29,437 nucleotides of DNA. Source: a virus. The position numbers and the translations under genes are program-made. Location of the stretch: positions 1 through 29,437 of IMG/VR virus record IMGVR_UViG_3300050821_010575, one strand, 5' to 3'. Shown piece by piece: positions 5,241 through 26,816 of the stretch (the first letter of the stretch is position 1; every line of letters starts with the position of its first letter). Below the pieces are notes generated by a model, which had not been told where the DNA came from, did no database searches, and worked only from the letters and a program-made list of their open reading frames with translations.

Positions 5241-5269
5241 AATGTAAGCTATGTTCAGCCCGGTGTACA
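5241..5269 (-). promoter_or_regulatory. Promoter-like site, leftward, before protease/capsid genes
   Basis: On the minus strand the site reads TGTACA, 17 nt, TACATT. It shares hexamers and spacing with seven other sites in this window and lies 45 nt upstream of the first gene of the protease-capsid block, as a -35/-10 pair would. It probably gives the capsid genes extra transcription beyond the operon promoter at 10569-10597. It is the most divergent -10 of the set. Confidence 0.5.
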
Positions 5270-5293
5270 TATCTGCATCAGCGTGCGTGAATC

Positions 5294-5313
5294 AGGTCAC
5301 ACCGAGCGTCACT
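5294..5313 (+). repeat. Copy C of the GGTCAC tandem motif (partial)
   Basis: The 20 nt from AGGTCACACCGAG onward match the outer arm of the two inverted composite repeats at 21414-21469 and 25395-25450, except for C in place of G at one position. It contains two (G/C)GTCAC half-sites 12 nt apart. The second arm of the composite repeat is absent here. It lies between the stop at 5337 and the promoter at 5241-5269. Confidence 0.6.
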
Positions 5314-5336
5314 CGTGCGTCCAGGTGATGCTTCGA

Positions 5337-5561
5337 TCAGGTCTTGAACACCTGCGGGACCGGTGCTGCGGGCACGGGCGCCGGGCTCGGCGGCACGTAC
5401 TTGTCGGTCGTCGCGTCGGGCTGCTGCTTCGGCAGGTCGACTGAGCCCTGGCTCGGCTCTGACTGCGGCGCGCCGAACGCTGACGTGGCCGGGCGGCCGC
5501 TGGGCTGCGCCGTGCTGCGCGTGGCGTTGTCCGGAACCCTGGTGCTTCTCTGCTCGTCCAT
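5337..5561 (-). CDS. Small Pro/Ser/Gln-rich protein
   Basis: 74 aa of low complexity, rich in Pro, Ala, Ser and Gln, with a Pro-Ala-Pro tail (P-P-S-P-A-P-V-P-A-A-P-V-P). The strong Shine-Dalgarno GAGAGGAGAG, 5 nt before the ATG, supports it as a real gene despite its composition. It lies between the portal gene and the protease block. Probably disordered and of unknown function; a virion-associated or assembly role is only suggested by position. Confidence 0.6.
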   Translation of the reverse strand: MDEQRSTRVPDNATRSTAQPSGRPATSAFGAPQSEPSQGSVDLPKQQPDATTDKYVPPSPAPVPAAPVPQVFKT

Positions 5562-5594
5562 GGTGGCTCTCCTCTCAAGCGTGGTGGTTGGGTC

Positions 5595-9388: not shown

Positions 9389-9996
9389 GCCATCCTCAGC
9401 TCTGGGTACCGCTGGTAGAACCGCTCTCGCTCCGTGGGCATGTCGATCCGCTGCATGTGCTGTTCTGCGTGAGCGCGGTAGTTCCAGAGCGGCGACCTAA
9501 CGCAGGCCCACACCGCGCCGGCCTTGAACAGCTCGTATCGCGACGCCCAGTCGCTGTACGCCAGTTCGTTGCCAGCCTTCTCAACCGCGTCGATGAAGCG
9601 CGTTCGGCGGATCAGGGACGTGAACCAAGCGACGGGGCCGCGCCGCAGGTTCTCAAGCGTGAAGTGCGGGGCGCAGTATCGCGCGCTTCGCTGCCCAAAC
9701 TCCTGCACGTCGCTGTAGACGAGATCCGCTCCGATGCGATCAGCGGCGGCGAGAAACTCGCGCAGCGCATCTGGTGCCCGCAGCGTGTCGTCATCACACA
9801 GTGGCAGGATATACTCGCCCTTTGCGAGCCGCGCCAGGTCGACGATCTTCTCGTGGTACGGAAAGCTCGACATGCTGATGAGGACCTGCACCTGCTCCTT
9901 CAGCAGGTCCTGCGCCTCGACCGAGGCCAGCGTCTCACGCAGCATCGCCGCTCTTTCGCCGCCAGACGGGATGAGGACGCTGACGCGAGGGTTCAG
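9385..9996 (-). CDS. GT2-type glycosyltransferase inserted between terminase genes
   Basis: I extend this gene to a CTG codon at 9996-9994, which overlaps the terminator codon of the small-terminase gene as CTGA with AAGGA 9 nt upstream. This gives 203 aa starting N-P-R-V-S-V-L-I-P-S-G-G, the first beta strand that GT-A enzymes need; starting at ATG 9945 would remove it. Other GT2 features: L-R-E-T-L-A-S-V-E-A-Q, then G-E-Y-I-L-P-L-C-D-D-D-T-L with the metal-binding D-D-D, and a late W-N-Y-R-A-H. It probably transfers a sugar to an unknown acceptor. Its place between the two terminase genes is unusual, and tight overlaps at both ends show it is integrated in the operon. Confidence 0.75.
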   Translation of the reverse strand: MNPRVSVLIPSGGERAAMLRETLASVEAQDLLKEQVQVLISMSSFPYHEKIVDLARLAKGEYILPLCDDDTLRAPDALREFLAAADRIGADLVYSDVQEFGQRSARYCAPHFTLENLRRGPVAWFTSLIRRTRFIDAVEKAGNELAYSDWASRYELFKAGAVWACVRSPLWNYRAHAEQHMQRIDMPTERERFYQRYPELRMA

Positions 9997-10538
9997 AACT
10001 CGCCGTCCTTGGCCGCGATCTGGGCTGGCGGTAGGGCGGGCTGCACCTCGCGACCCGACATGCGCTCTGCAGCCTCACGAACAGCGTCGAGCAGCTTCAT
10101 GCGCGGATCTTCGCTGCCGAAGTTGAAGTTGTACGTATCGCCGCTCGCTGGCAGCTGCGAGGCCTTCTCGTTCAGCAGCTGCTCGCTCAGGTGCAGCAGC
10201 ATCGGGACGTTGCCCCTCATCGCGACGCGCCATCTCACCCGTCGAAGCGCGATCAGCGACTCTTCGCGCCCCTGCTCAGTGATGCGGCCGTACTGCGCCT
10301 TGAAGTCTGCGATCGGCACGTCGATGACCTTCGCGATCTCGTCGTCGGTCATGTACAGCGCTGCGAGGCGCCGCACCATCTCCGGGTCGATGGGGCGCTC
10401 TCGAAAGTCCTGGTTCTCGAGCGGGTCGAGAACCTCGCTCTCGAACAGGTCAGCCGGCAGCCGTCGTGGGATCGACGCGTCGAGGAGCGTCTCTCTGCGC
10501 CGCCGCTGTCGGTGAAGGCCTTCCGCTGCCACGCGCAC
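9993..10538 (-). CDS. terS: Terminase small subunit-like protein
   Basis: 181 aa. The central part has a helix-turn-helix-like stretch (M-V-R-R-L-A-A-L-Y-M-T-D-D-E-I-A-K-V) followed by I-T-E-Q-G-R-E-E-S-L-I-A-L-R-R and A-M-R-G-N-V-P-M-L-L-H-L-S-E-Q-L-L, a pattern I know from small-terminase-like proteins that recognise packaging sites. It is the first gene of the leftward structural operon and is followed (after the GT) by the large terminase. The start may be GTG 10538 or the in-frame GTG at 10532-10530; the latter is better spaced (8 nt) from AAGGA. The C-terminus (P-A-L-P-P-A-Q-I-A-A-K-D-G-E-F) is a flexible tail. Confidence 0.75.
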   Translation of the reverse strand: MRVAAEGLHRQRRRRETLLDASIPRRLPADLFESEVLDPLENQDFRERPIDPEMVRRLAALYMTDDEIAKVIDVPIADFKAQYGRITEQGREESLIALRRVRWRVAMRGNVPMLLHLSEQLLNEKASQLPASGDTYNFNFGSEDPRMKLLDAVREAAERMSGREVQPALPPAQIAAKDGEF

Positions 10539-10568: not shown

Positions 10569-10597
10569 AACATAGCACATGTGTGGCCAAAAGTACA
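10569..10597 (-). promoter_or_regulatory. Promoter-like site, leftward, for the structural operon
   Basis: The minus strand reads TGTACT, 17 nt, TATGTT, with the -10 about 30 nt before the small-terminase start. Hexamers and spacing match the other promoter-like sites. Being the only such site upstream of the terminase genes, it is the best candidate for the head-operon promoter and is divergent from the site at 11339-11367. Confidence 0.6.
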
Positions 10598-11246
10598 CAG
10601 GTGTCACCTCGAGTCACGGCAGGACGGCAAGGACTGGCCCACCGCGCCCGGGTAGTTATAAACATGCATGTGCCCGAGCGCTGCGCCATGGGCTGGTAAC
10701 CCCCTAAAGATGCAAGGATAGGCCATTCGAGATGCCTCAAGCACACTTCTAATCTCAAGCCAGGGTTACATGGGTTACAGGGTTACACGACCCTCTAGCT
10801 GGTAAGGACAGCGACGACGCTTTCGCTAAGTTGTTGCCCTGGCTACCCTTGCACCTTAGTGACCCACCCAAAGCCCGCGTTGCCGTGTAACTTCCTTGTA
10901 ACTTCACCTTGTAACAAAAAGTCACTTTTTGCAGCTGTAAGTGATTGCTGCCAAATGCTTTAGTGACGTGTAACCCCTGCTGCGCGTTACTCTTATGACA
11001 CAGGACTCAAATAGTAACTCGTATGTAGGTTTTGAGCTCACCCCTTGACCAGGCTACGCCTTGCCCCAGGCCTTCGTACGCCCTGCCATCGGCTTGTAAC
11101 CCCGACTGCTCACCCGGGGTGACTGCGGGTTACAGTGGGGTTACAAGCCTCTACGTTGTTTAGCACGAACCACTTGCAGCGTACGATTTGTGATATTGTT
11201 AACAACTGAAGTTACAAGCGGGTTACAGCTCCTGCGCAGCGAGGCG

Positions 11247-11270
11247 TGTCACTCGCTCAGTCGAGTGACA
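11247..11270. promoter_or_regulatory. Perfect 9-bp inverted repeat
   Basis: TGTCACTCG, six bases CTCAGT, then CGAGTGACA. No T-run follows in either direction, so it looks like an operator or extrudable hairpin within the control region rather than a terminator. It lies about 70 nt upstream of the rightward promoter-like site. A smaller inverted repeat (GAAAC-GCTA-GTTTC, 11322-11335) lies between the two. Confidence 0.5.
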
Positions 11271-11338
11271 GTCCCGCGTCGCGTGTCTTTTGCTCCCCAA
11301 TAAACAGCCGTGTACTCAAAAGAAACGCTAGTTTCCTG

Positions 11339-11367
11339 TGTACTTTTCGTGAGATAGGTGTTAGGTT
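11339..11367 (+). promoter_or_regulatory. Promoter-like site, rightward, for the small-gene operon
   Basis: TGTACT, 17 nt, TAGGTT, followed by GAGCTC. It is nearly the same as the site at 20101-20129 (TGTACTTTTC and GTGTTAGGTT in both). It would drive the operon beginning at 11530, leaving a leader of about 155 nt that includes a GGGTTACA copy at 11425. Confidence 0.65.
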
Positions 11368-11529
11368 GAGCTCACATGAAGGTGCAAGCATCTCGTTCGG
11401 CGTAGCGCTGGGGGCCTAGCCCGCGGGTTACAGCCATCCTCACTTGGAAACGCGTAGGCATACGTCGCAAGTGGCAGCGCTCCGCCGAACGAAGCTCGCT
11501 CAAGACACTTCTATTAGAGAGGAGATCCG

Positions 11530-11949
11530 ATGCCACGGAAGTCCAAGCAACTGAAGAAGCGCAAGCACGTTCGCAAAGTGCCGTACGTCTCGAGCGACCG
11601 GCAGCTCGACGCCGACACGAACAAGCGGGTTCGAGCCATTCACCTCGGTGAGAAGAAGGCGCGGCCATTCATCATCAGCGATGACGTCATGAAGGATGAC
11701 CTCGCAGCGAGCAATCGTGAGAAGACGGTCAAGTTCGCGGAGCGGTACGCGACGCCGGTCGAGAAGATCGAAGAGGCCTTCCGCTTTCCGCTGTCCATGA
11801 ACAGCGCGATCGTCGACCGCGTCTTCCTCAGCATCCTGGCCGACCGGCTTGAGAGCGGGCTGCCCGCGACGCAGGACGGCCAGCGAGCCGACGCGGTCGT
11901 TTCACAGCTCCGCACCATCGCGAGCTGCCTCACGACGCTGGCGAAGTAG
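11530..11949 (+). CDS. Unknown protein, first gene of rightward operon
   Basis: 139 aa with AGAGAGGAGA 4 nt upstream of the ATG, one of the clearest starts in the window. Residues 1-17 are very basic (P-R-K-S-K-Q-L-K-K-R-K-H-V-R-K), the rest mixed helical with acidic patches and a hydrophobic C-terminal part (I-V-D-R-V-F-L-S-I-L-A-D-R-L). I do not recognise a family. As the first gene after the GTTACA array with a nucleic-acid-binding type of N-terminus, it is a candidate DNA-binding regulator, but nothing in the sequence proves this. Confidence 0.75.
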   Translation: MPRKSKQLKKRKHVRKVPYVSSDRQLDADTNKRVRAIHLGEKKARPFIISDDVMKDDLAASNREKTVKFAERYATPVEKIEEAFRFPLSMNSAIVDRVFLSILADRLESGLPATQDGQRADAVVSQLRTIASCLTTLAK

Positions 11950-11953
11950 CTCA

Positions 11954-12166
11954 ATGATGCCCTGGCTCCTGATCGCCCTGAACACGGTCCTTGCCGCCTT
12001 GATCGGCTACGCGGTCGGTCGTCGCGAGACCGCGCGCCGCTACGAGCGGTTCATGCACGAGAACAAGGTCATGATCGAGAAGCTGTTCATCATCAGCGAG
12101 CAGCAGATCGGGTTCATCGAAGAGGTGACCAAGACGCTGCGCGACCTGCGGAGCAGGGTCACGTGA
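11954..12166 (+). CDS. Small single-span membrane protein
   Basis: 70 aa (two adjacent ATGs at 11954 and 11957). Residues 2-20 form a hydrophobic segment (P-W-L-L-I-A-L-N-T-V-L-A-A-L-I-G-Y-A-V) followed by G-R-R-E-T-A-R-R, giving an N-out, C-in topology by the positive-inside rule. A charged amphipathic helix follows. It starts 4 nt after the previous stop and its stop overlaps the next GTG (GTGA). Function unknown; small membrane proteins of this type occur in early phage operons. Confidence 0.6.
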   Translation: MMPWLLIALNTVLAALIGYAVGRRETARRYERFMHENKVMIEKLFIISEQQIGFIEEVTKTLRDLRSRVT

Positions 12167-12501
12167 CCTCCCCCTTCGTCCCTCGGCAGCCCGTTCGCAT
12201 CCGGTTCGAGGCCGTGGGCACCAGCTTCGATGAGATCGTGCCGGCCTGTGTGATCGCGCGGCCATCCGCCGACGGCGCCAGCGTTCAGGTCACCTCTCAC
12301 CAGGGCAGCAGAGAAGAGCTCGTCACGCTCTACGCCGGCCTCATCGGGCAGGCCCACAACCTGGGCGTGCTCGGCGACGCGCTGAGCGCTGTGCTGAGCG
12401 GAAAGCTGCGCGGCGAGACCACGGTCCAGCTGGACCCGCCGGCGGGCACCCGCCCACTCGACGACGTCCCGCCCCATCTCCGGAGGCCGCCCGGTGCCTG
12501 A
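12163..12501 (+). CDS. Unknown protein
   Basis: 112 aa starting at GTG 12163, which overlaps the upstream stop (GTGA) and has GGAG about 10 nt ahead. The N-terminal half is beta-like (V-R-I-R-F-E-A-V-G, A-C-V-I-A-R-P), the middle helical (L-V-T-L-Y-A-G-L-I-G-Q-A-H-N-L), and the end Pro-rich. No family recognised. The last 8 nt overlap the next gene. Confidence 0.6.
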   Translation: MTSPFVPRQPVRIRFEAVGTSFDEIVPACVIARPSADGASVQVTSHQGSREELVTLYAGLIGQAHNLGVLGDALSAVLSGKLRGETTVQLDPPAGTRPLDDVPPHLRRPPGA

Positions 12502-12910
12502 CCCCCTCCCCGCCTCCCCAGCCCCAAGCCGCCCGAAGCAGTACACCGAAGCGGAGATAGTCGCGCACCACGGCGATCCGATGTGGGAAGCCATTTGGTA
12601 CGCGATCAAGGGTTGGGACATCAGCCGCACGTCGGACGGAGTGTACAGTTCTCCGACTGGTGATGCTGCCACGGCGATTTACGATGCCATCAAGGCCCGC
12701 TTCCCGCAGTTCGAGGACGGGGCATCCTTGAAGGTGACAGACGCGATGGCGCTGGCGGCCATGCGGGAGTTCAGCGCGCAGAAAGGCGAGTCGCATGACG
12801 CGATGTGGGGCGCGGTCGATACGAAGGACAAGCTCGAAATGTTGAGCGAGTGGCGGGCGATCATTGAGTGCGCGCTGATTCACGGAGACATGCGAGAGGT
12901 GACGCTATGA
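12494..12910 (+). CDS. Unknown phage protein
   Basis: 138 aa from GTG 12494, with GGAGG 7 nt upstream. After a Pro/Ser-rich first 15 residues it has D-P-M-W-E-A-I-W-Y-A-I-K-G-W-D-I and A-T-A-I-Y-D-A-I-K-A-R-F, a style shared by many phage hypothetical proteins that link Trp-rich helices to a variable core. No catalytic motif is evident. ATGA overlap with the next gene. Confidence 0.6.
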   Translation: MPDPLPASPAPSRPKQYTEAEIVAHHGDPMWEAIWYAIKGWDISRTSDGVYSSPTGDAATAIYDAIKARFPQFEDGASLKVTDAMALAAMREFSAQKGESHDAMWGAVDTKDKLEMLSEWRAIIECALIHGDMREVTL

Positions 12911-13593
12911 CGCGCGACTGGAAGTACGATCCGAAGGTCATTGCGGCACGCGAGTTGTACGAGGACGCGAACCATCGGTATTTCGATCCGATTGTTGCAG
13001 AAATCGAAGCCGCACTCGAACGCGGCGATGACGTGTATCTCCAGCCTGACGGCACTGCGCTGTTTGGCGCTGAGGCTCGTCGCGCTCGTCGCCCAACGCT
13101 TGACGAACTTCAGGCGATTCTCGCGGAGGAGGAAGTGTCCCCAGCGGGGGCCGGAGGGAACGGCGGAGCCTCGACTATCGCGGGAGATCGTGACCGTATT
13201 TGGTGCGAGGCGTTGATCGCCAACGTCAGCTTTTGGTCGAAGGAGTTCAAGGGCATCATCGACTACGTGGTGAGCAAGGCACCTGACGCCATCGTACCTG
13301 ACCGCTCCCCAGCCTCCCCCGACGCGAGGCCGTCCACAGACGCCAAAGAATCGCGCCGGGCACTTCGCGACATGCTGGAGCAGGTGTTGCAGAATAGCTG
13401 GAACGACTACTGCGGTGATGCGGGGTTCATCCCTGATGGGTTCGACATCGCACGGCGGCGCGGCAAGCCACCAGAGTTGACGGTGGACTTCGCGCGCTCG
13501 GGCAACTTCCTGCTCAACGCCGCGACCTCACTCGCGCATGAACTTTTCAAGGCTGGATGGTCCCCTCCCGACGCGAGGCCGTCCAATGGCTAA
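12907..13593 (+). CDS. Unknown protein with Pro/Ser/Asp linkers
   Basis: 228 aa from ATG 12907, which overlaps the previous stop (ATGA) and has AGAGG 7 nt upstream; an upstream in-frame codon at 12868 is less likely. It reads as at least two short modules, residues about 1-80 and 95-120, joined by Ala/Gly-rich and Pro/Ser-rich linkers, then a C-terminal module. The peptide P-D-A-R-P-S occurs in a linker and again at the very C-terminus, encoded by an identical 19-nt repeat. No family recognised. Confidence 0.6.
   Translation: MTRDWKYDPKVIAARELYEDANHRYFDPIVAEIEAALERGDDVYLQPDGTALFGAEARRARRPTLDELQAILAEEEVSPAGAGGNGGASTIAGDRDRIWCEALIANVSFWSKEFKGIIDYVVSKAPDAIVPDRSPASPDARPSTDAKESRRALRDMLEQVLQNSWNDYCGDAGFIPDGFDIARRRGKPPELTVDFARSGNFLLNAATSLAHELFKAGWSPPDARPSNG
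13318..13336 (+). repeat. Dispersed 19-nt repeat CCCGACGCGAGGCCGTCCA, copy 1
   Basis: Identical to 13567-13585; the first 13 nt recur at 14018-14030. All copies read in frame as P-D-A-R, in flexible linkers or at a C-terminus. Confidence 0.7.
13567..13585 (+). repeat. Dispersed 19-nt repeat, copy 2
   Basis: Identical to 13318-13336. It ends at the junction with the methyltransferase start codon and includes that gene's probable ribosome-binding GAGG. Confidence 0.7.
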
Positions 13594-14221
13594 GGGATTA
13601 CGCGCGATGAGCAAGCGCACGATGCGCGAGGACTGGTGCACGCCACCCGCTCTGTTCGCAAAGTATGATGCCGAGTTTCACTTCACGGTTGACGGAGCGG
13701 CGACAGCGGCCAACGCGCTTTGCAAGAAGTTCTGCGACGGTCGCCTCTACGAGCCAGACTGGGCGAACGAGACGGTGTGGCTCAACCCGCCCTACGGCTA
13801 CAAGAACCTCGCGCGATGGATGGAGCGATCGTACACCCAGTCACAGCGCGGCGCGACGGTGGTGTGCCTCGTTCCCGCGCACACGGGTCAACCGTGGTGG
13901 CACGACTGGGTCATCGGGAAGGCGAGCGAGATCCGCTGGATCAAAGGCAAGGTCAAGTTCGTCGGCGCAGATTCGTGCGCCCCGTTCCCTTCGTGCATCG
14001 TGATTTACCGCCCTCAGCCCGACGCGAGGCGGACGCGAGAGGGAGAGACGTACTACGGCGGATGCAAGGCGGCGGAATGGGTCAACTCGTTTTTTGCGCT
14101 CAAGCTCGACGGGGACAGTCTGATGACATTGCAGGATGCGTTGGACGTGTTCTACACGCACGCGCCTGTGATGCACGATTCGTCTGTCTCCTCCCCGGCG
14201 CGGACGCCGAAGGAGGGGTGA
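13586..14221 (+). CDS. Phage N6-adenine DNA methyltransferase (Dam-type)
   Basis: 211 aa if started at ATG 13586 (GAGG 7 nt upstream, 8-nt overlap with the previous gene); an in-frame ATG at 13607 is the alternative. It carries W-C-T-P-P-A-L-F (residues 17-24), F-T-V-D-G-A-A-T, and the catalytic N-P-P-Y at 67-70, followed by a Gly/Ala-rich strand (G-A-T-V-V-C-L-V-P-A) and F-P-S-C-I-V-I-Y. This matches the phage DNA N-6-adenine-methyltransferase family, which methylates adenine and may protect phage DNA from restriction. Residues after about 155 form an extra tail with a P-D-A-R-R repeat-coded linker and no recognised function. Confidence 0.9.
   Translation: MAKGLRAMSKRTMREDWCTPPALFAKYDAEFHFTVDGAATAANALCKKFCDGRLYEPDWANETVWLNPPYGYKNLARWMERSYTQSQRGATVVCLVPAHTGQPWWHDWVIGKASEIRWIKGKVKFVGADSCAPFPSCIVIYRPQPDARRTREGETYYGGCKAAEWVNSFFALKLDGDSLMTLQDALDVFYTHAPVMHDSSVSSPARTPKEG
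14018..14030 (+). repeat. Dispersed repeat, partial copy 3
   Basis: The first 13 nt of the 19-nt repeat, inside the linker after the methyltransferase catalytic domain; it reads P-D-A-R-R. Confidence 0.6.
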
Positions 14222-14225
14222 GGTG

Positions 14226-14516
14226 ATGCATGAGACCCGCTTCGGGCTTGGCGACAAGCCGGTCGCCATCCAGCTCACGGACCACGGCTGGCGACCTACG
14301 CTACCGCAGACCATCAGGCGCATCAGCCTCGGATGCACGACACCAGCTGTCTACTTCCTCGGCCCGCTCAATGAGCGTTTCGCTGAGGCCGATCTGTTCA
14401 TGACGATCGGGCAGGCGAGGGCGGAGTGCCTCGCGCGGAACAGCGCGGCCGGCATCGTCGACCCGCTCGCCCCGCCGCCCACCTCGATAGACACCCTGCT
14501 GGAGACGATGCGATGA
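14226..14516 (+). CDS. Unknown protein
   Basis: 96 aa. AAGGAGG lies 8 nt before ATG 14226 and 5 nt before an in-frame GTG at 14223; I prefer the ATG. The N-terminus is beta-like (T-R-F-G-L-G-D-K-P-V-A-I-Q-L), then a segment with I-G-Q-A-R-A-E-C-L-A. The C-terminus is Pro-rich, then helical (D-T-L-L-E-T-M-R). No family recognised. The Shine-Dalgarno is inside the end of the methyltransferase gene. Confidence 0.6.
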   Translation: MHETRFGLGDKPVAIQLTDHGWRPTLPQTIRRISLGCTTPAVYFLGPLNERFAEADLFMTIGQARAECLARNSAAGIVDPLAPPPTSIDTLLETMR

Positions 14517-18338: not shown

Positions 18339-18339
18339 C

Positions 18340-18630
18340 ATGGCACCACCGCGCACGAACACTCACCGCCTCAGCCTTGACCTCATCTCGCAGATCAAGC
18401 AGCTCTTCCCGAGCCCGCAGCACTCGTACATCCTGCTGAAGCTGCGGAAGGGCGGCCTTGAGCTGCGGCGGTACATCACCGCGCTCGGGTTTGGGCACCT
18501 CTCGCACAAGGAGATCCTACTCATCGAGGCGAGGTGGGACGCATGGAAGAAGCACTACCTCGTCGATCCAAAGGCGGAGTACTTCGACCTGCCGGATGGC
18601 CTGATCCCCGACCAGGAGCCAAAGCTCTGA
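18340..18630 (+). CDS. Unknown protein
   Basis: 96 aa, ATG one base after the glycosyltransferase stop. Helical start (L-S-L-D-L-I-S-Q-I-K-Q-L-F), then H-K-E-I-L-L-I-E-A-R-W-D-A-W-K-K and a Pro/Asp end. No family recognised. No strong Shine-Dalgarno, so translation is probably coupled. Confidence 0.55.
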   Translation: MAPPRTNTHRLSLDLISQIKQLFPSPQHSYILLKLRKGGLELRRYITALGFGHLSHKEILLIEARWDAWKKHYLVDPKAEYFDLPDGLIPDQEPKL

Positions 18631-19004
18631 TGGACAAGACCTTCTTTGACAAGGTGCACGCCAGCACGGTTGTGCACAGCACCATCCTCGATCTCGCGAA
18701 GCTCGAGGGACAGTACGCTAGCAGCGTGAGCCTGCACAGGGCTGGCATTATCACTGAAGCTGAGAAGGACGAGGTCGGCAAGAAGGTGCAGGCCGCGATC
18801 CACGACCTCGTGACGCAGGCCTGCCACGTCGGCCTGGCGCGAGGCTACCGTGATGGCGTTGAGCGGAGCATCGGCATCGTGCGGAGGATGTGCCACAACG
18901 AGCAGATCGTGGATCACGTTGACATTGTCGAGGCGCTGTGCTCGCTGACGCAGGACCCAGAGCTGGTTCGCATCTACACCCATGAGGAGGCGTTCAGGCC
19001 ATGA
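18630..19004 (+). CDS. Unknown mostly helical protein
   Basis: 124 aa from ATG 18630 (TGATG overlap, AGGAG 12-13 nt upstream). Helices with V-H-S-T-I-L-D-L-A-K-L-E and V-Q-A-A-I-H-D-L-V-T-Q-A-C-H-V-G-L-A-R-G-Y-R-D-G. A longer in-frame extension to 18534 would overlap the previous gene heavily and has a low-complexity Arg/Pro composition, so I reject it. No family recognised. Confidence 0.6.
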   Translation: MDKTFFDKVHASTVVHSTILDLAKLEGQYASSVSLHRAGIITEAEKDEVGKKVQAAIHDLVTQACHVGLARGYRDGVERSIGIVRRMCHNEQIVDHVDIVEALCSLTQDPELVRIYTHEEAFRP

Positions 19005-19270
19005 CTGCCCGTCACCTGGTCATCCCGAGACTGTTCACAGCCCTGCTGGCTATAGGGCTCATCATGCTCAGCGCGCTGATCGCCTGGGTGATCACCGCGG
19101 ACGATCGCGACCACGAGCTGGCCCGGTACGACGCCTGTGACCAGCTGGTCGACCGCTCTCGCAGCCACAGTGACACCGCTGACGCCACGAGGTGGTGCGG
19201 CGATCACGGCGTGCTGTTCACGTTCGACACCGCCCCGAGGAGGGTCGCGCACCATGCTCGCGTTCACTAA
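19001..19270 (+). CDS. Single-span membrane protein with a Cys-containing outer part
   Basis: 89 aa, ATGA overlap. Residues about 10-31 (L-F-T-A-L-L-A-I-G-L-I-M-L-S-A-L-I-A-W-V-I) form one membrane span after a short basic start, so the C-terminal 55 residues, with two Cys (C46 and C66), probably face the periplasm or outside. The topology resembles small spanin-like or inner-membrane phage proteins, but no lipobox or partner is visible. The next gene, also membrane, overlaps its end. Confidence 0.55.
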   Translation: MTARHLVIPRLFTALLAIGLIMLSALIAWVITADDRDHELARYDACDQLVDRSRSHSDTADATRWCGDHGVLFTFDTAPRRVAHHARVH

Positions 19271-19469
19271 GGCGCCTGAGGTCGTTCACGTCATCTTGAA
19301 GCTCACGGGCCTCGCGCTCGTCTTCCTGTGGCTGTACGACCTGCTCAAGGAGCTTCGACCCCTGTGGAAGTGGGAAACGACCGACGACAAGGTGCGGTAT
19401 GCCAGCATCGCGATCGTGATCGCAGTCCTGCTCTACTCAGCCCTCTACTCGCAGGCCGTGCCATGGTGA
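19254..19469 (+). CDS. Two-span small membrane protein, holin-like in size
   Basis: 71 aa from ATG 19254, GAGGAGGG about 10 nt upstream. Two hydrophobic spans (V-V-H-V-I-L-K-L-T-G-L-A-L-V-F-L-W-L-Y and Y-A-S-I-A-I-V-I-A-V-L-L-Y-S-A-L-Y) are joined by a charged loop. Length and topology fit class II holins, and the preceding gene is also a membrane protein. But no endolysin lies nearby, so a lysis role is only a possibility. Confidence 0.55.
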   Translation: MLAFTKAPEVVHVILKLTGLALVFLWLYDLLKELRPLWKWETTDDKVRYASIAIVIAVLLYSALYSQAVPW

Positions 19470-19684
19470 CGCCGCCAGCGCGAGGGGAGCGCGTCTACTC
19501 GACGATCAAGAAGGACCTCGGCGGACAGCCGCGTCGGATCGCTGAGCTCATCGGCGCGACGCACGATGGCTACCACGTCGTGCTGGAGGGCGGCCTCCAC
19601 CGGGTGGTGAGCTGGCACGACACCGGCGGCTGGCTCGTGACCCGCGACTACCCAGCCCACCCCAGCGAGATCCAGACCCGATGA
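19463..19684 (+). CDS. Small unknown protein, beta-rich
   Basis: 73 aa from ATG 19463, overlapping the membrane gene by 7 nt and the deaminase by 4 nt (ATGA). Contains G-Y-H-V-V-L-E-G-G-L-H-R-V-V-S-W and G-W-L-V-T-R, which suggests a small beta barrel. No family recognised. Confidence 0.55.
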   Translation: MVTPPARGERVYSTIKKDLGGQPRRIAELIGATHDGYHVVLEGGLHRVVSWHDTGGWLVTRDYPAHPSEIQTR

Positions 19685-20094
19685 GACCGACCAAGGCTGA
19701 GATGTTCATGCGGATGGCGGAGGTCGCCGCGCTGCGAAGCACGTGCAAGCGGGCGGCGGTCGGCGCGATCATCACCGACGCTTCGATGCTGAACGTGCTC
19801 GCGATCGGGTACAACGGCCCGCCGCGCCGGCTCGGCAATGAGTGCCCAGATGACGCCAGCGTCGCGGGCGGCTGCGGCTGCATTCACGCGGAGGTCAACG
19901 CGTTGCTGAAGGCGCCGTTCGGCGGCGGGCTGAGCCAGACGATGTTCATCACCGACAGCCCATGCCTGGCCTGCGCGAGGCTGATTATTAACTCAGGCGT
20001 GAACCAGGTCGTTTTCCGCAAGCTCTACCGGCTCTGGGACGGCGTGGAGCTGCTAACGCGCAACGGCATCGTCGTCATTCATCTTTCTCAGTAG
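19681..20094 (+). CDS. dCMP deaminase-like protein
   Basis: 137 aa from ATG 19681 (ATGA overlap). It has the zinc-dependent cytidine/deoxycytidylate deaminase site: C-I-H-A-E (H69, catalytic E71) and S-P-C-L-A-C (C95, C98), with A-V-G-A-I-I near the start and I-G-Y-N-G-P-P-R before the site, as in dCMP deaminases that make dUMP for thymidylate synthesis. No thymidylate synthase or dUTPase is in the window. It is the last gene before a new promoter. Confidence 0.88.
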   Translation: MRPTKAEMFMRMAEVAALRSTCKRAAVGAIITDASMLNVLAIGYNGPPRRLGNECPDDASVAGGCGCIHAEVNALLKAPFGGGLSQTMFITDSPCLACARLIINSGVNQVVFRKLYRLWDGVELLTRNGIVVIHLSQ

Positions 20095-20100: not shown

Positions 20101-20129
20101 TGTACTTTTCACAGCGACAGTGTTAGGTT
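20101..20129 (+). promoter_or_regulatory. Promoter-like site, rightward
   Basis: TGTACT, 17 nt, TAGGTT, followed by AGCTC, as at 11339-11367. TGTAAC lies at 20135-20140, overlapping the expected transcription start; bound protein there would repress, in contrast to the leftward cassettes, where TGTAAC is upstream of the -35. It drives the glycosylase and nuclease genes. Confidence 0.65.
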
Positions 20130-20163: not shown

Positions 20164-20883
20164 ATGATGTCGTTCTTGCCGTACGCGTCGTTCGAGGCCA
20201 GCGCGGCTGTCCTTGACTGGCGAAGGCTCAACAAGCAGCGGGTAGAGGCGCTGCAGATGCTGCTGGCCTTGACCGGCCGCAGCGGAGCCTGGCGCAACCA
20301 CCCAGCGACGAGGATGTGGCTGGGACACGAGGCGAGCTTGGCCAGCTATGCGCTGGCGATGAGCGCTGAGTGGGTGCACCGAGGCGGCAAGGACACGGTC
20401 GCGCTGCGCGTGACGGCGATCGTCAAGGAAGATGGGCTAAGCCTCGTGGAAGGGCCCAAGCCGCCGTGGTTCGGCGACGAGCGCCTGCACAGCTCTCACC
20501 GCTCTAACCTGCTTCGCAAGAAGCCGGATCACTACGGCCTGCTGGGCTGGGCTGAGCAACCAAACCAGCTGTACTACTGGCCTCCCGAAGCTCGCAACGT
20601 TCTACCACTGCCCAGGAGGGCAAGCACGATGGACGAGAAGACCGCAGAAGCCGCAGTTCCGACCTCGCTCAGCAAGATCCAGGCGATCATCGCTGATGAG
20701 CGCACCAACGTCAACCAGGCGGTCGGCGCGAACAACGTCGCCCGCTTCAACGCCCGCCTCGACATGCTCGAGCGCGTCGCGAAAACCACCTTCGAGCGCT
20801 ACGGCAAGCAGGTCGCGTACGCCACGCGTCCGAAGCGCGTGAAGAAGGAGAAGCAGGCCGCCGCGGCCCCGGCTGCGAAGTAA
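20164..20883 (+). CDS. Pyrimidine-dimer DNA glycosylase-like protein with C-terminal extension
   Basis: 239 aa. Residues 1 to about 150 (F-L-P-Y-A-S-F-E-A-S-A, V-L-D-W-R-R-L-N-K-Q-R-V-E-A-L-Q, W-R-N-H-P-A-T-R-M-W, P-P-W-F-G-D-E, S-H-R-S-N-L-L-R-K-K-P-D-H-Y) match the MSMEG_6728/pyrimidine-dimer glycosylase-related family of UV-damage repair proteins. Residues about 156-239 form a separate, Lys/Ala-tailed helical part. Its first Met (ATG 20629-20631) has AGGAGGG 8 nt upstream, so the tail may also be made alone. It is the first gene after the promoter at 20101. Confidence 0.8.
   Translation: MMSFLPYASFEASAAVLDWRRLNKQRVEALQMLLALTGRSGAWRNHPATRMWLGHEASLASYALAMSAEWVHRGGKDTVALRVTAIVKEDGLSLVEGPKPPWFGDERLHSSHRSNLLRKKPDHYGLLGWAEQPNQLYYWPPEARNVLPLPRRASTMDEKTAEAAVPTSLSKIQAIIADERTNVNQAVGANNVARFNARLDMLERVAKTTFERYGKQVAYATRPKRVKKEKQAAAAPAAK
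20629..20883 (+). CDS. Possible internal in-frame gene (C-terminal domain of the glycosylase ORF)
   Basis: An 84-aa product beginning M-D-E-K-T-A-E, in frame with the glycosylase gene. AGGAGGG lies 8 nt before the ATG, as strong as any start in this region, which is unusual within a coding sequence. The product would be helical with a basic end (R-P-K-R-V-K-K-E-K-Q). It may be a formerly separate gene joined to the glycosylase, still translated by itself. Confidence 0.4.
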   Translation: MDEKTAEAAVPTSLSKIQAIIADERTNVNQAVGANNVARFNARLDMLERVAKTTFERYGKQVAYATRPKRVKKEKQAAAAPAAK

Positions 20884-21514: not shown

Positions 21515-22519
21515 TCAGCTGCCGATGAGCTCGAGCAGCCTGTTCTTGGCCGTCAGCTTCAGGCTCTGCCCACCACCCAGCCAGGCGTAGTTGAGCCGGC
21601 TGTTCGCGGAGCGACCACGCTCGTGGTCGAAGTACTCCGTGACCGCGTTCAGGAGCCCCCACGCGGTGCCCTTCGCCGAGGGAAGATCGGCGCCCTTCGC
21701 CTCGCCGCCGAACAGCTTCAGCACCCGGTCCACCGGCTTCGGCGCGTCCTCGATCTTCTCGCGATCCGCGGTCGGGGCGAAGAGGTTGTAGCTGAAGTCG
21801 ACGGCGGTGAGGTAGTCGATCTGCGCCGCGCTGAGCTTCTTCGCCTCTTCCGCGCTGCGGACCAGCTTCTCCTTGCTCAGGTTCAGCCGCTCGCGGATCT
21901 CCTCCATCCGGCCCTCGCTGAGCTCGGCCGTGTGCCAGAGCTGCACGGAGCTGCCGCGGCCGCCGAGCGCCATGGTCATCGTGTTCTGGCAGACGACCCG
22001 GATCTCGGTGAGCTTCGCGATCATGCCCTTGCCGTACTGGTGGGGGTTCATGAGCAGCACGTAGCCGTCGCTCTTGTCCGGTTGAGCGGCCGTGCCGACG
22101 TCGAAGCCAACTCCGAGCTTCGCCAGAGCCCAGATGTTCTGGCCCCCGTTCAGGCTGCCAGCCGTCTCGATGTGCATGTCGCCGGCCTCGACGTACTTGC
22201 GGAAGAAGTCGAGGATCTGGCGGTTCTGGAACGGAACGTAGTCCGGGCCGACCAGCGTCAGCGGCTTGTTCGTGTCGCCGCGGAGCAGGAAGCGGTGCCG
22301 GGACTCGACGAGCATGCCGCCGTTCAGCGCGCCGTCGTCCTTCGTGGGAACGCGGTAGCAGGCCGGCACGAGGTTGACCTGCCAGTCGAGGTGCGCGGCC
22401 TTCTCGATCTCCTCGATCGTGGCGCCCTTTTTGACCTCCTGCCCGAGCCCGTGCCAGGGCTTCTCACCGACGTAGGCCATCGCGGCGTTCCCGTTCGTCT
22501 CATCGATCGCGTGTGACAT
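21515..22519 (-). CDS. DUF932 phage/plasmid-like protein (TIGR03299 type)
   Basis: 334 aa from ATG 22519-22517, with AGAGGAGA 7 nt upstream; a frame extension to 22624 runs through the promoter and is rejected. The N-terminus M-S-H-A-I-D-E-T-N-G, then E-K-P-W-H-G-L-G, and later D-Y-V-P-F-Q-N-R, C-Q-N-T-M-T-M-A-L and the C-terminal N-A-V-T-E-Y-F-D-H-E-R-G-R-S-A-N-S-R match this family, widespread in phages and plasmids but of unknown biochemical function. The Leu/Lys helix in the middle fits the family. It is the last gene of the leftward cassettes and has its own promoter. Confidence 0.9.
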   Translation of the reverse strand: MSHAIDETNGNAAMAYVGEKPWHGLGQEVKKGATIEEIEKAAHLDWQVNLVPACYRVPTKDDGALNGGMLVESRHRFLLRGDTNKPLTLVGPDYVPFQNRQILDFFRKYVEAGDMHIETAGSLNGGQNIWALAKLGVGFDVGTAAQPDKSDGYVLLMNPHQYGKGMIAKLTEIRVVCQNTMTMALGGRGSSVQLWHTAELSEGRMEEIRERLNLSKEKLVRSAEEAKKLSAAQIDYLTAVDFSYNLFAPTADREKIEDAPKPVDRVLKLFGGEAKGADLPSAKGTAWGLLNAVTEYFDHERGRSANSRLNYAWLGGGQSLKLTAKNRLLELIGS

Positions 22520-22589: not shown

Positions 22590-22618
22590 AACCTAACACT
22601 GATGCGGTTGAAAGTACA
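22590..22618 (-). promoter_or_regulatory. Promoter-like site for the DUF932 gene
   Basis: Minus strand: TGTACT, 17 nt, TAGGTT, followed by CAGCTC. AATGTAACAA lies just upstream (GTTACA on plus at 22635-22640), 16 nt from the -35, and overlaps the last codons of the zinc-ribbon gene. AGAGGAGA of the DUF932 gene lies downstream. Confidence 0.65.
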
Positions 22619-22627: not shown

Positions 22628-22801
22628 CTATATTGTTACATTGGGCTCCGGGACGACCTCGCCGCAGTACAGGCAGACCTTCACCGGCTCGACCATCTCC
22701 TTGCAGGTCTCGCAGACCCGCATATCGGGATCGACGGCGCGCTGGCAAAACGGGCACTCCAGCGAGATGTCCTCGTGCTGGCACTCTGATGGTTGCGTCA
22801 T
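22628..22801 (-). CDS. Small zinc-ribbon-like protein
   Basis: 57 aa from ATG 22801-22799, overlapping the stop of the upstream gene (ATGA). It has three CxxC pairs (E-C-P-F-C-Q near 15-18, V-C-E-T-C-K near 29-32, V-C-L-Y-C-G near 43-46) plus C7 and H9. These could bind two zinc ions, as in double zinc-ribbon proteins. Function unknown; it may bind nucleic acid or RNA polymerase. A longer in-frame start at 22921 would overlap the neighbour and is rejected. Confidence 0.7.
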   Translation of the reverse strand: MTQPSECQHEDISLECPFCQRAVDPDMRVCETCKEMVEPVKVCLYCGEVVPEPNVTI

Positions 22802-23040
22802 GACATGTTCTCCATGATCAGCGCGACGCAACCTGCTGCGGCAGCGAGCTCGAACGCCTCGTGCTCGAAGAAGTCCTCGGCCGGGTGAGCGTAGTAGAAC
22901 GTGGCCGTCTCCTCCAGCCAAGCGCGAAACTCCGCGCTGCGCTCGACGAAGCGATCATGAGGCAGCGGGTACATGTTCTGCGGCTGGAACTTCGCGGGGA
23001 TCTGCGCTTCCGTGAGAATCACGATCTCGGTCTGCGGCAT
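22798..23040 (-). CDS. Unknown small protein
   Basis: 80 aa from ATG 23040, with AGAGAGGAGAGAGG 6 nt upstream. Starts M-P-Q-T-E-I-V-I-L-T-E-A-Q-I-P, is aromatic-rich in the middle (F-R-A-W-L-E-E-T-A-T-F-Y-Y-A), and ends hydrophobic (A-A-A-A-G-C-V-A-L-I). First gene of a two-gene cassette with the zinc-ribbon gene. No family recognised. Confidence 0.7.
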   Translation of the reverse strand: MPQTEIVILTEAQIPAKFQPQNMYPLPHDRFVERSAEFRAWLEETATFYYAHPAEDFFEHEAFELAAAAGCVALIMENMS

Positions 23041-23088: not shown

Positions 23089-23117
23089 AATCTAATGCAT
23101 GACATTGAGGATGTACA
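23089..23117 (-). promoter_or_regulatory. Promoter-like site for the 80-aa/zinc-ribbon cassette
   Basis: Minus strand: TGTACA, 17 nt, TAGATT, followed by CAGCTC. AATGTAACAA lies 15 nt upstream of the -35 (23133-23138 for GTTACA). Directly before that lies the hairpin at 23146-23228. Confidence 0.65.
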
Positions 23118-23145
23118 CTGCCTCGGAAACTTGTTACATTGGCCC

Positions 23146-23228
23146 GTAGGAGCTCCCAAGCCGGCAGCTAATAGAACCATATTAGCGTACCGGCTTGAGA
23201 CCACCTCCATGAACCGAGGAGCTGCTAC
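23146..23228 (-). terminator. Nested hairpin at the end of the AAA+ ATPase gene
   Basis: Three nested pairings: GTAGGAGCTCC with GGAGCTGCTAC (10 of 11 bp; the second arm overlaps the ATPase stop), AAGCCGG with CCGGCTT (7 bp), and GCTAATA with TATTAGC (7 bp), closing a loop GAACCA. The promoter-like cassette starts right after it. There is no U-run, so it may be a factor-dependent terminator or processing site. The hairpin at 25018-25082 also contains GAACCA. Confidence 0.6.
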
Positions 23229-24925
23229 TCCTGCGTCGGCTTGAACCGCTTAGCGAACTCGATCGTTGCCAGATCGATCTCCTTGCCCTCGCTCTTGGCG
23301 ATCATCGATCCCAGCTTGAGCAGGTTCTTGATGTCGCGGCCCGTGAGCTTGGGATGCGCGGTCAGGATCTGCTCGATCGTCGCGTCGCTCAAGCTCAGCT
23401 TCGCGTTGTCGGCCAGCACGCGCCAGATCTTGCGCTGATCATCGACAGCGGGCGTGGCGTAGTCGATGCGCGCGATGCAGCGGCTGAGCACGGCGTCATC
23501 GATCAGATCCGCGCGGTTGGTCGTGAGGAACATCACGCCGCGGTAGTACTCGAGCACCCGCAGGAAGACGCCGACGATTGCGTTCTGCGTGAGATCAGAA
23601 CCACGCTTCGCGACGTAGACGTCCGCCTCGTCGAGCAGCAGGATAGCGCTCCACCGCTGCGAGCGAGCAAACACCTTGAGCAGCTCGGCTTCGAGCTCGT
23701 CAGGCGAGGTGCCCAGCTGGCTGCACTGGACCGTGTACAGCGGCTTGTGCGCGACCTCAGCGTAGACCTCGCTCGTGAGCGTCTTGCCGGTGCCAGGGAT
23801 GCCAGTGCATGCGATGATCGAGCCGCCGCCCTTGTTGCCGATGATGTCCTGAAAGCCGCCCGTGCCGGCCATGAGCAGGTCGACCAGATGACGGGCGTCC
23901 TTCGGCAGCACAAGCTTGCTGCCAAGCGTCGCGTCGTACACGTACTCCGTCAGCTGGTCGATGTAGACCTCCACCCGCAGCTGGCGGCTGAGATCAAACA
24001 CCATCAGCACGGTATGAAGCGGGATCTCGATGTAGGCGAGTGACTTGACTGGCTCTTCACCGCGAGCAGCGGCCTCCGCCTCGTCGTCCTCGTCTTTGGC
24101 CTCGTCCTTCTCACCAGCGCCAGGCAGCACGCCCCAGAAGTTCTCGTCGATGTCCGTGTCGCGCTCGAGTTTGTTGCGGCTACGGCTGCCGTGATCACCC
24201 TCGCTCGGGATGTCGATGACGACCCGCACGGCTGCGTCATCCTTATCCAGCTGCACGGCGCTCTGCTTCCGCCACCAGTCATCGCTAACCGCCTCGCTCA
24301 TGCCCTCACCGGTCGCTAGAAACTGCTTGCCGACGCAGTCAGATTCAGCTTCCCATCGCGCTTTGTCGCGCAGGTACGCTTCACGCAGCTCAGGCGTCTG
24401 CGTGACGTCCTTGCCGCGAACGTCTTCGAACCAGAACGTCAGATGACGGCTGCTGCGAACGCCGAAGCTCGAGTAGAGCAGCGAGATGTCGCAGTGCGCC
24501 GGCGTGACTCCACCGCCGTGGTGGCTGCACTTTGGCACGTACACGACGCTATTGACGTAGTACGGCAGCCAGCGCTCGTGATCTTTGATGTAGACGCGAT
24601 GGCCATCGACCGAGCGAAGGTGCTCTGTCAGCAGCGCGGTGAAGTGCGACATGTTGCGCGGCTTCTGACCGGCGGGGTTTTCCATCAGCTTCCGCCAGTT
24701 CGCGATGTCGTACAGCAGCGTCGCCGCGCCGCGGATCATCTGGCTGGAACCGCGGTCGAACGGCTTGACCAGCGCCTCGAGCTGCTCGACCTGCGCGGCA
24801 GTGTACTTGTTCAGCTCAAGCAGGACGTAGCTGCGATTGTAGAAGCTGTGCGTCTCGATCTGATACAGCCGCAGCTTGTCGAAGCCGATCGCCTGAGCCA
24901 GCGCCTTCGGGACCTTGATCTCCAT
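23225..24925 (-). CDS. AAA+ ATPase
   Basis: 566 aa from ATG 24925, with AGAGAGGAGAGAG 4 nt upstream. The C-terminal ATPase module has Walker A G-I-P-G-T-G-K-T at 375-382, Walker B I-L-L-L-D-E-A-D with D432 and E433, sensor-1-like T-T-N-R at 468-471, a candidate Arg finger near S-R-C-I-A-R (R482), and a helical lid. Residues 1 to about 340 form an N-terminal region with no motif I recognise, containing an acidic Asp/Glu/Ala stretch near 270-290. This suggests a remodelling ATPase (ring-forming) of a phage type whose partner is unknown. The adjacent promoters and the DUF932 gene suggest a common functional unit. Confidence 0.9.
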   Translation of the reverse strand: MEIKVPKALAQAIGFDKLRLYQIETHSFYNRSYVLLELNKYTAAQVEQLEALVKPFDRGSSQMIRGAATLLYDIANWRKLMENPAGQKPRNMSHFTALLTEHLRSVDGHRVYIKDHERWLPYYVNSVVYVPKCSHHGGGVTPAHCDISLLYSSFGVRSSRHLTFWFEDVRGKDVTQTPELREAYLRDKARWEAESDCVGKQFLATGEGMSEAVSDDWWRKQSAVQLDKDDAAVRVVIDIPSEGDHGSRSRNKLERDTDIDENFWGVLPGAGEKDEAKDEDDEAEAAARGEEPVKSLAYIEIPLHTVLMVFDLSRQLRVEVYIDQLTEYVYDATLGSKLVLPKDARHLVDLLMAGTGGFQDIIGNKGGGSIIACTGIPGTGKTLTSEVYAEVAHKPLYTVQCSQLGTSPDELEAELLKVFARSQRWSAILLLDEADVYVAKRGSDLTQNAIVGVFLRVLEYYRGVMFLTTNRADLIDDAVLSRCIARIDYATPAVDDQRKIWRVLADNAKLSLSDATIEQILTAHPKLTGRDIKNLLKLGSMIAKSEGKEIDLATIEFAKRFKPTQE

Positions 24926-24961: not shown

Positions 24962-24990
24962 AATCTAGCAAGCGGCGATCTGAAAGTACA
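24962..24990 (-). promoter_or_regulatory. Promoter-like site for the AAA+ ATPase gene
   Basis: Minus strand: TGTACT, 17 nt, TAGATT, followed by CGAGC. AATGTAACAA lies 16 nt upstream of the -35 (GTTACA at 25007-25012). The 16 nt TTGTTACATTGGCCCG are identical at 23131-23146 and 25005-25020, so the upstream part is a copied module. Confidence 0.65.
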
Positions 24991-25017
24991 CAGCGTCAGG
25001 CATCTTGTTACATTGGC

Positions 25018-25082
25018 CCGTGAGGTCATTGGCCGGCTTGGATGATGAACCATATAAGCCAACCTGGCCGATGACCTCACGG
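25018..25082 (-). terminator. Long hairpin between the 73-aa gene and the ATPase promoter
   Basis: The 17-nt arms CCGTGAGGTCATTGGCC and GGCCGATGACCTCACGG pair along their full length in RNA with one G-U pair. An inner pairing GGCTT/AAGCC encloses a loop containing GAACCA. It lies 34 nt after the stop of the upstream gene, directly before the conserved promoter module. It is probably a terminator (no U-run) or RNase III-type processing site separating cassettes. Confidence 0.7.
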
Positions 25083-25116: not shown

Positions 25117-25338
25117 TCATGATACCTCGACCGTGAACCCCTCCTCGAGGTTCACGTAGTCGCCGACGCGATCCATGATCATGTAGTGGACCGTCTCTGA
25201 GTCGCGGGCCTCGTACACCTCTCCTGTCTTGCGGTGCCGGCAGGCGACCTTCGCCTGGCCCATGACGTGCTTGCGCGAGGCGTGCTGAAACCCGAGCACG
25301 CGCTGCGCCTCGGTTCTCGTGAGGAACTTCCGAGCCAT
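25117..25338 (-). CDS. Unknown small protein
   Basis: 73 aa from ATG 25338, GGAGGG about 9 nt upstream. M-A-R-K-F-L-T-R-T-E-A-Q-R-V-L-G-F is a helical start, H-R-K-T-G-E-V-Y-E-A a beta turn, and Y-V-N-L-E-E-G-F-T-V-E-V an acidic strand. No family recognised. It is the gene downstream of inverted repeat B and has no TGTACT-type promoter of its own. Confidence 0.65.
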   Translation of the reverse strand: MARKFLTRTEAQRVLGFQHASRKHVMGQAKVACRHRKTGEVYEARDSETVHYMIMDRVGDYVNLEEGFTVEVS

Positions 25339-25394: not shown

Positions 25395-25450
25395 CCGGGG
25401 TGAATAGTACCTATCATACAGCTGGTCTTCAGTGACCCTCGGTGTGACCT
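25395..25450 (-). repeat. Composite inverted repeat, copy B
   Basis: The reverse complement equals copy A (21414-21469) in both conserved arms (21 and 23 nt), with a different 12-nt middle. It lies between two leftward genes, 21 nt after the stop at 25472 and 56 nt before the start at 25338. Confidence 0.8.
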
Positions 25451-25471
25451 GGTGACGGACTTTCGCAGCGC

Positions 25472-25693: not shown

Positions 25694-25720
25694 GGCTCTC
25701 CTCTCTGAAAGGTAAGTGGG

Positions 25721-26368
25721 TTACAGCGTAACGCCGGTGTGCGCGAGCAGGCTCTTCACCTCTTTCAAGCTCAGCGTCGTCGTGAACTGGATCGTGGCGC
25801 GCTCGGCGCTGAAGCTCACGTCCCAGGTGTTGACGTCACCGAGGACGCAGCCGATCGAGGTCAGCGCGTCCATGGCGTCCTGCAGCGCGGCGCCGTCATC
25901 GATGCCATAGAACTTGAGGCGGTGCGGCTGTGGCAGCTCCAGCGTCGCCGTGGCGCGCTGCTGGCTGGCCTCGATCGCAGCGTGCTCAGCGCGGATGCCG
26001 GTCGGGTCGGCGGTCACCTGCGCGGCGACACGATGCTCGATCACTGCCGTATTGTCTTGTACAACGAAGATGACGTCCTCTTCCGTCAGAGGTGAGCCGT
26101 CATCTGGCAGCAGATTCGAGTTCGTGATCAGCTTCTCAATCGGCGGCAGCATGAGCTCCATAATATCGCGGCGCTGGATCTCTATCGCCGTCTTGGCCAG
26201 CGCTACCCACTCCCTGCTGGAGTGATTCGCGATGCTGGTGGCGTCAACGCGAACTGGCTGTGAAAGATCAGCGCCAGCGATGACGTAGTAGCCGTTGCCG
26301 CGAATCAGCTCGCCGTTGATGCCAGCCGCGCGAATCGCGGCTGTGACGCTCTTGGTCGTGAGGCGCAT
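25721..26368 (-). CDS. Unknown phage protein
   Basis: 215 aa. The N-terminus (T-T-K-S-V-T-A-A-I-R-A-A-G, then E-L-I-R-G-N-G-Y-Y-V-I-A-G) resembles the start of several uncharacterised phage proteins, and the rest is helical with a beta-rich C-terminal half. GGAGG lies 9 nt before the ATG, inside the end of the upstream gene. The stop codon overlaps a GGGTTACA site (25718-25725). Confidence 0.65.
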   Translation of the reverse strand: MRLTTKSVTAAIRAAGINGELIRGNGYYVIAGADLSQPVRVDATSIANHSSREWVALAKTAIEIQRRDIMELMLPPIEKLITNSNLLPDDGSPLTEEDVIFVVQDNTAVIEHRVAAQVTADPTGIRAEHAAIEASQQRATATLELPQPHRLKFYGIDDGAALQDAMDALTSIGCVLGDVNTWDVSFSAERATIQFTTTLSLKEVKSLLAHTGVTL

Positions 26369-26383
26369 GTTAGCGGGCCTCCA
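26366..26383 (-). repeat. Gene-junction repeat TGGAGGCCCGCTAACATG, copy 1
   Basis: Identical to 26544-26561. In both places the minus strand encodes the last residues E-A-R and stop of one gene, the Shine-Dalgarno GGAGG and the ATG of the next. Confidence 0.8.
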
Positions 26384-26546
26384 GCTGTCTGCGGTACGAC
26401 TTCAAGATGCGACGGGCCGTGAGACCGCGGTCGCTGATGTTTCCACTGCGCAGCCAGTCACGGATCTGATCCTCGTTCCAACCTGCGACGGCCATCGACT
26501 TTCCGAGCTGGTGGCAGGTGATGAGCGGCAAGGTGTACTTGAACAT
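26370..26546 (-). CDS. Small protein (58 aa), helical
   Basis: 58 aa from ATG 26546-26544 to TAA 26372-26370, with GGAGG 9 nt upstream. It contains two short helices (L-G-K-S-M-A-V-A-G-W-N-E-D-Q-I-R-D-W-L-R-S-G and L-T-A-R-R-I-L-K-S-Y-R-R), which suggests a helix-turn-helix-like binding protein. It starts one base past the upstream stop, and both its start and end junctions contain the same 18-nt sequence. Confidence 0.7.
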   Translation of the reverse strand: MFKYTLPLITCHQLGKSMAVAGWNEDQIRDWLRSGNISDRGLTARRILKSYRRQLEAR

Positions 26547-26561
26547 GTTAGCGGGCCTCCA
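26544..26561 (-). repeat. Gene-junction repeat, copy 2
   Basis: Same 18 nt as 26366-26383, joining the Cys-rich gene to the 58-aa gene. The two copies bracket the 58-aa gene. Confidence 0.8.
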
Positions 26562-26739
26562 CTAAGGCTGCTTCTAGAGCTTCAGTGTACATGCGCTCAG
26601 CATCTCGACAAGGCCACAGTTCCATGCAGCACCAGCACCAATCTGCGCCAGACACTTGGCGCTTTACGCAAGCGTGAGCAGTATCTTTAGTGACACTGTC
26701 GATCGTGAACCCGATCTTGCGCTCTTTATCGGTCGTCAT
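26548..26739 (-). CDS. Small Cys-rich protein
   Basis: 63 aa from ATG 26739, with GAGAGGAGAG 6 nt upstream. Contains C-V-K-R, then W-C-W-C-C-M and W-P-C-R, so five Cys in about 25 residues, enough for one zinc or iron site. It ends A-L-V-E-A-R, the same coded end as the next gene. First gene of the 25.7-26.7 kb cassette. Confidence 0.65.
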   Translation of the reverse strand: MTTDKERKIGFTIDSVTKDTAHACVKRQVSGADWCWCCMELWPCRDAERMYTEALEAALVEAR

Positions 26740-26788
26740 GACCTGCTCTCCTCTCTAGTGTTTGACATCAACATCATTCTTGTAGCTG

Positions 26789-26816
26789 AATCTAAAACAG
26801 CGTACGGGAAAGTACA
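26789..26816 (-). promoter_or_regulatory. Promoter-like site for the 25.5-26.7 kb genes
   Basis: Minus strand: TGTACT, 16 nt, TAGATT, followed by CAGCT. The upstream TGTAAT/ATTACA (26838-26843) is a weaker relative of TGTAAC, 21 nt from the -35. It probably drives the cassette from 26739 down to 25472. Confidence 0.6.

Follow-up and report, generated by a model that had tools for sequence, protein, structure and literature searches.

One candidate promoter type with a TGTAC upstream box at the gene blocks of an uncultured phage fragment

The window analysed here, the whole 29,437-base stretch of an IMG/VR record, is probably a fragment of a larger genome; the source is a tailed phage, at a guess of soil type. 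Its G+C content is about 64%. The left part, on the minus strand, encodes a head-tail adaptor, the major head protein, a head maturation protease, the large terminase and a portal protein fused to a head-morphogenesis domain. A tRNA-Met gene (CAT; 2574-2648) lies beside a glycosyltransferase gene inside this head-gene block; tRNA was all that an Rfam search of the window returned. The middle part, on the plus strand, encodes a DNA methyltransferase, an exonuclease, a glycosyltransferase, a dCMP deaminase and a pyrimidine-dimer glycosylase-like protein. The right part returns to the minus strand with a DUF932 protein, a double zinc ribbon, an AAA+ ATPase and, at the contig end, a family A DNA polymerase (27014-29434), which is split by an intein that contains an HNH_3 endonuclease domain.

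An earlier note on this DNA had described eight sites sharing the pattern TGTAC(A/T)-N16/17-TANRTT. All eight lie where that note placed them, on the strands it gave (Table 1). Every site is intergenic, on the coding strand and upstream of a gene block; none overlaps a gene in a hand-made gene list that leaves only 8.4% of the window intergenic. With gene starts set by hand from the list of open reading frames, and therefore approximate, the end of the -10 element lies 31-71 bp from the assigned start codon, except at one of the eight sites, where the distance is 163 bp. This longer stretch is the structured leader of promoter 3. Within this 160-nt leader, 18-nt arms (94% complementary) enclose a structured region at 11393-11492; it has no Rfam match.

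Table 1. Candidate promoters, TGTAAC elements and RNA hairpins in the window
Feature	Coordinates	Strand	Sequence	Context
Promoter 1	5241..5269	-	TGTACA-N17-TACATT	Before gene starting 5196 and protease/capsid block; ATG 45 bp past the -10 end; lowest matrix score (18.4)
Promoter 2	10569..10597	-	TGTACTTT, TGn, TATGTT	Before putative small terminase gene 9993-10538, large terminase, portal
Promoter 3	11339..11367	+	TGTACTTT, TGn, TAGGTT	Before long plus-strand block 11530-20094
Promoter 4	20101..20129	+	TGTACTTT, TGn, TAGGTT	Before Pyr_excise gene 20164-20883; starts 7 bp past previous stop
Promoter 5	22590..22618	-	TGTACTTT, TGn, TAGGTT, CAGCTC	Before DUF932 gene 21515-22519
Promoter 6	23089..23117	-	TGTACA-N17-TAGATT, CAGCTC	Before genes 22798-23040 and 22628-22837 (zinc ribbon)
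Promoter 7	24962..24990	-	TGTACTTT, TGn, TAGATT	Before AAA+ ATPase gene 23225-24925
Promoter 8	26789..26816	-	TGTACTTT-N14-TAGATT (spacer 16 from hexamer), CAGCT	Before genes 26548-26739, 26370-26546 and 25721-26368
Ninth match	23112..23140	+		Antiparallel to promoter 6, shares palindromic TGTACA; no gene 3'
TGTAAC array	10765..11432		13 TGTAAC/GTTACA elements	Between divergent promoters 2 and 3; final copy in promoter 3 leader
TGTAAC element	22633..22644	-	CCAATGTAACAA	5' of promoter 5 -35; also end of zinc-ribbon reading frame
TGTAAC element	23131..23142	-	CCAATGTAACAA	5' of promoter 6
TGTAAC element	25005..25016	-	CCAATGTAACAA	5' of promoter 7
RNA hairpin	23148..23206	-	No T run	Past gene 23225-24925, just before promoter 6; -37.8 kcal/mol, z -6.0
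RNA hairpin	25018..25082	-	No T run	Just before promoter 7; -37.4 kcal/mol, z -8.0

The upstream element extends beyond six bases. TGTAC is invariant and is followed by TTT at six of the eight sites; the longer box TGTACTTT is found at six, often with GCTG or GCAG immediately 5' of it. The box is longer and stricter than the usual -35 elements of hosts. As the earlier note stated, it is unlike TTGACA: all eight sites carry TGTACW. The downstream element is of the TANNNT type recognised by sigma70/sigmaA; it reads TANRTT, with invariant TA..TT, and stands 17 bp (seven sites) or 16 bp (one site) from the upstream hexamer. The optional extended -10 (TGn) is present at five sites. Neither this nor the greater length of the upstream box was mentioned in the earlier note. 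The trailing CAGCTC that had been called frequent is exact at only two sites (22618 and 23117); a shorter form is commoner, with CAGCT at three sites and, at five, AGCT no more than two bases from the -10.

The pattern TGTACW-N16/17-TANRTT matches nine times in the window; none was expected, and none was found in 100 dinucleotide shuffles. The reversed pattern has no match in the window. When TGTACW/TANRTT pairs were counted at all spacings from 8 to 34, only 17 (eight times) and 16 (once) occurred. An unsupervised scan, in which all 1024 pentamers were paired with TANNNT at sigma70 spacing, avoids the bias of a pattern picked post hoc. It placed TGTAC far ahead: nine of 66 occurrences were paired, against 0.52 expected (10^-8.4), whereas 200 shuffled windows yielded no word stronger than 10^-4.1. 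A matrix built from the eight sites gave these same training sites 18-39 bits and the next unrelated match in the window 11 bits.

Ordinary promoters could not be found beside this class. TTGACA occurs six times in the window and is never paired with a -10 element, and a consensus scan of 10-29.4 kb for sigma70-like TTGACA/TATAAT sites gave chance levels only. In the related complete phage MW202777, the same pentamer scan returned TTGAC as its top word (13 of 164, against 1.73 expected); the scan therefore detects ordinary promoters where they are present, and the window phage differs. A discovery routine run on upstream regions with crude gene calls was discarded: it missed the motif of the window itself, which deprives its negative results elsewhere of any weight, and the whole-sequence scan took its place.

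The ninth match, absent from the earlier note, overlaps the site at 23117. It is read as a by-product of the palindromic TGTACA and the adjoining TGTAAC element, and not as a promoter. Antisense or bidirectional promoters were also considered, since TTACATT lies opposite three minus-strand sites; as a main reading this was rejected, since the bases in question belong to the TGTAAC element, which occurs 13 times elsewhere, and no gene follows.

TGTAAC is itself a repeated element. Its 13 copies in the array compare with a shuffle mean of 0.76 and a largest shuffle count of 4; they take the form TGTAAC(CCC), and several are direct repeats 8-13 bp apart. Outside the array the window has five copies; three have the form CCAATGTAACAA and stand about 55 bp 5' of the inferred starts of promoters 5-7. 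The array looks like a regulator site (an operator array), an origin, or a replication or partition site. In a distant terminase relative (L352; also L350), nine GTTACA/TGTAAC copies fall within 0.9 kb of apparently non-coding DNA (about 2540-3520) 5' of the terminase. The very stable hairpins before promoters 6 and 7 are possible terminators or RNA-end protectors.

The promoter type could not be traced to other phages: the motif did not turn up in any related phage, and strict patterns had no match in all viral contigs. Candidate relatives from a looser pattern were rejected, as each stretch held a single match and the multi-match contigs inspected were AT-rich. Promoter 2 is identical in L010, a contig 99.9% identical. 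A literature search for phage promoters with TGTACT had no relevant result.

Of the proteins scanned from this fragment, none was recognised as a sigma factor, an RNA polymerase or an activator. Two possible regulators (11530-11949 and 25117-25338) were set aside, their predicted structures being uninterpretable (pLDDT 50 and 54). A sigma-70 region 2 domain is present in five of 16 related phage records. The best named relatives of the AAA+ ATPase are in the Bacillus jumbo phages AR9/PBS1 and in Rhizobium phages; just two relatives were found in IMG/VR, and both of their records are among the five with a sigma gene. One sigma-bearing relative, G574, encodes a 184-aa sigma-like protein. It also carries GGAAT-N19-TATAAT seven times within 60 kb, always with exactly the same spacing (L401-L403; e.g. 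8238, 19847, 26494 and 30583), several of them at gene ends or within genes; this is possibly another phage-specific promoter class. Phage-owned sigma factors thus recur among related phages, but pairing a sigma gene with a motif is conjectural both for the window phage and for G574.

With L010 set aside, identity to the best terminase relatives is only 42-57%, and these relatives are spread over many phyla; a host assignment by this route was therefore rejected. Host-wide use of the motif was examined in 525 genomes: 149 Actinomycetota, 99 Acidobacteriota, 120 Pseudomonadota, 81 Chloroflexota, 37 Myxococcota and 39 Verrucomicrobiota, with phylum labels taken from the records used as centres. 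The motif was rare in these, with no excess over the reversed control, when searched with patterns stricter than TGTACW-N16/17-TANRTT. The same was found in 27 genomes with related terminases, the one set searched with a pattern no stricter than that. Host-wide use was rejected for the six phyla sampled, and the result argues against a widespread host promoter.

The eight sites very probably constitute a real promoter class, because of their position, strand and fixed spacing, the TGn extension and the lack of competing TTGACA promoters. Since the upstream half is TGTACTTT and not TTGACA, the class probably depends on a non-standard promoter-recognition factor of phage or host. The earlier note had offered an unusual host sigma factor or a phage-modified RNA polymerase. 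The former gained no support from the 525 genomes of six phyla, and the latter is better put as a phage sigma factor or activator. A phage product of this kind, be it a sigma factor or a MotA-like activator, is the likelier reader of the box in place of a -35. It is somewhat favoured over a host factor because the motif is not enriched in the 525 genomes and sigma genes are found in five of 16 related records.

In the mechanism proposed, one promoter class would start all transcription units visible in the fragment, both head genes and replication and nucleotide genes. A multi-subunit RNA polymerase would recognise the sigma70-type -10 (TGn plus TANRTT) and start 6-8 nt downstream. The (GCTG)TGTACTTT box, at -35 to -28, would be recognised instead of a host TTGACA. 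Its reader, a phage sigma or a MotA-like activator acting with host sigma, is most likely the product of a phage gene that lies outside the fragment. TGTAAC, about 55 bp 5' of three promoters and packed at 10.7-11.4 kb, is probably bound by a further regulator. More tentatively, a phage sigma or activator of an undescribed group may read TGTACTTT and control all units alone from early to late, together with a TGTAAC-binding regulator at the array in the divergent region.

The strongest rival, though a doubtful one, is that the housekeeping sigma of the host prefers a TGTACT-like -35 and that the phage simply uses host promoters. The spacing, TGn and -10 are all of sigma70 type, and a single class serves structural and replication genes alike; the latter is less expected of a late or middle phage factor, and a host holoenzyme fits it equally. 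Also in its favour, genome sampling was confined to six phyla. Against this rival, neither the 525 genomes nor the 27 with related terminases are enriched for the motif, and the box exceeds the usual host -35 in length and strictness.

It is very unlikely that the sites are not promoters but operators, bound by a phage repressor or another DNA-binding protein in the manner of mycobacteriophage stoperators. Such sites would also be repeated, intergenic and directional; two of the sites contain the palindrome TGTACA, and the TGTAAC element suggests that DNA-binding arrays occur here. However, the two-part layout, the 16/17 spacing, TGn and TA..TT match a -35/-10 pair, six of the eight boxes are the non-palindromic TGTACTTT, and these gene blocks yielded no alternative promoter candidates. 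Least credible of all is that a phage-encoded RNA polymerase (T7-, N4- or phiKZ-like), and not a sigma-type holoenzyme, uses these promoters. Conservation does continue beyond the -10, in CAGCT and AGCT, as in polymerase-specific promoters. Single-subunit polymerase promoters, however, form one contiguous block, whereas a pair of blocks separated by two helical turns and accompanied by TGn is typical of sigma70-type recognition; the window proteins scanned include no RNA polymerase.

If the phage-factor reading is correct, sequence alone is enough to map all promoters of this uncultured phage fragment with a single consensus, which also points to a promoter-recognition factor whose -35 specificity is new. 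That factor, with its promoters, would be separate from TTGACA promoters and hence useful for controlled expression. The contrast with the TTGACA-using relative indicates that phages with related terminases recruit RNA polymerase differently. The promoter class is a testable prediction, yet one that is known in kind.

Bacterial sigma70/sigmaA promoters share the 17 bp spacer, TGn and a TANNNT -10 with the window class. They differ in the -35, which is TTGACA and not TGTACT/A, and in position 5 of the -10, which is always T in the window and not A. ECF sigma promoters, such as those of B. subtilis sigX, have a TGTAAC-type -35 and a CGAC/CGTC -10. The window -35 likewise starts with TGTA, followed by C, but its -10 is TANRTT.

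Phage sigma promoters (phiEco32/7-11, SPO1 gp28, T4 gp55) resemble the class in that a phage-specific consensus is repeated at transcription units, and sigma genes are found in related phages. A shared consensus at many units is present in the window; its non-host status refers to the six phyla sampled. Those of phiEco32/7-11 consist of a short block around TGATGT/TAATGTATA (PMC4331800). The window, in contrast, has a separate -35 and a sigma70-like -10, and no sigma gene was seen in the fragment.

T4 middle promoters carry the MotA box WWWTGCTTtA 12+/-1 bp from a host sigma70 -10, with TGn in about half (PMC2988021). They share with the window class a box instead of a -35, a retained sigma70 -10, TGn in about half of the sites and use at many units, a likeness that counts in favour of the phage-factor reading. 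The window box is TGTACTTT and ends 14-15 bp before the -10 (12 in T4); since both sequence and distance differ, the window class is not a T4-type promoter. It is also placed before head genes, and neither MotA nor AsiA, the T4 proteins of sigma appropriation, was found among the proteins scanned from this incomplete genome. In working, T4 middle promoters are nevertheless the closest known system.
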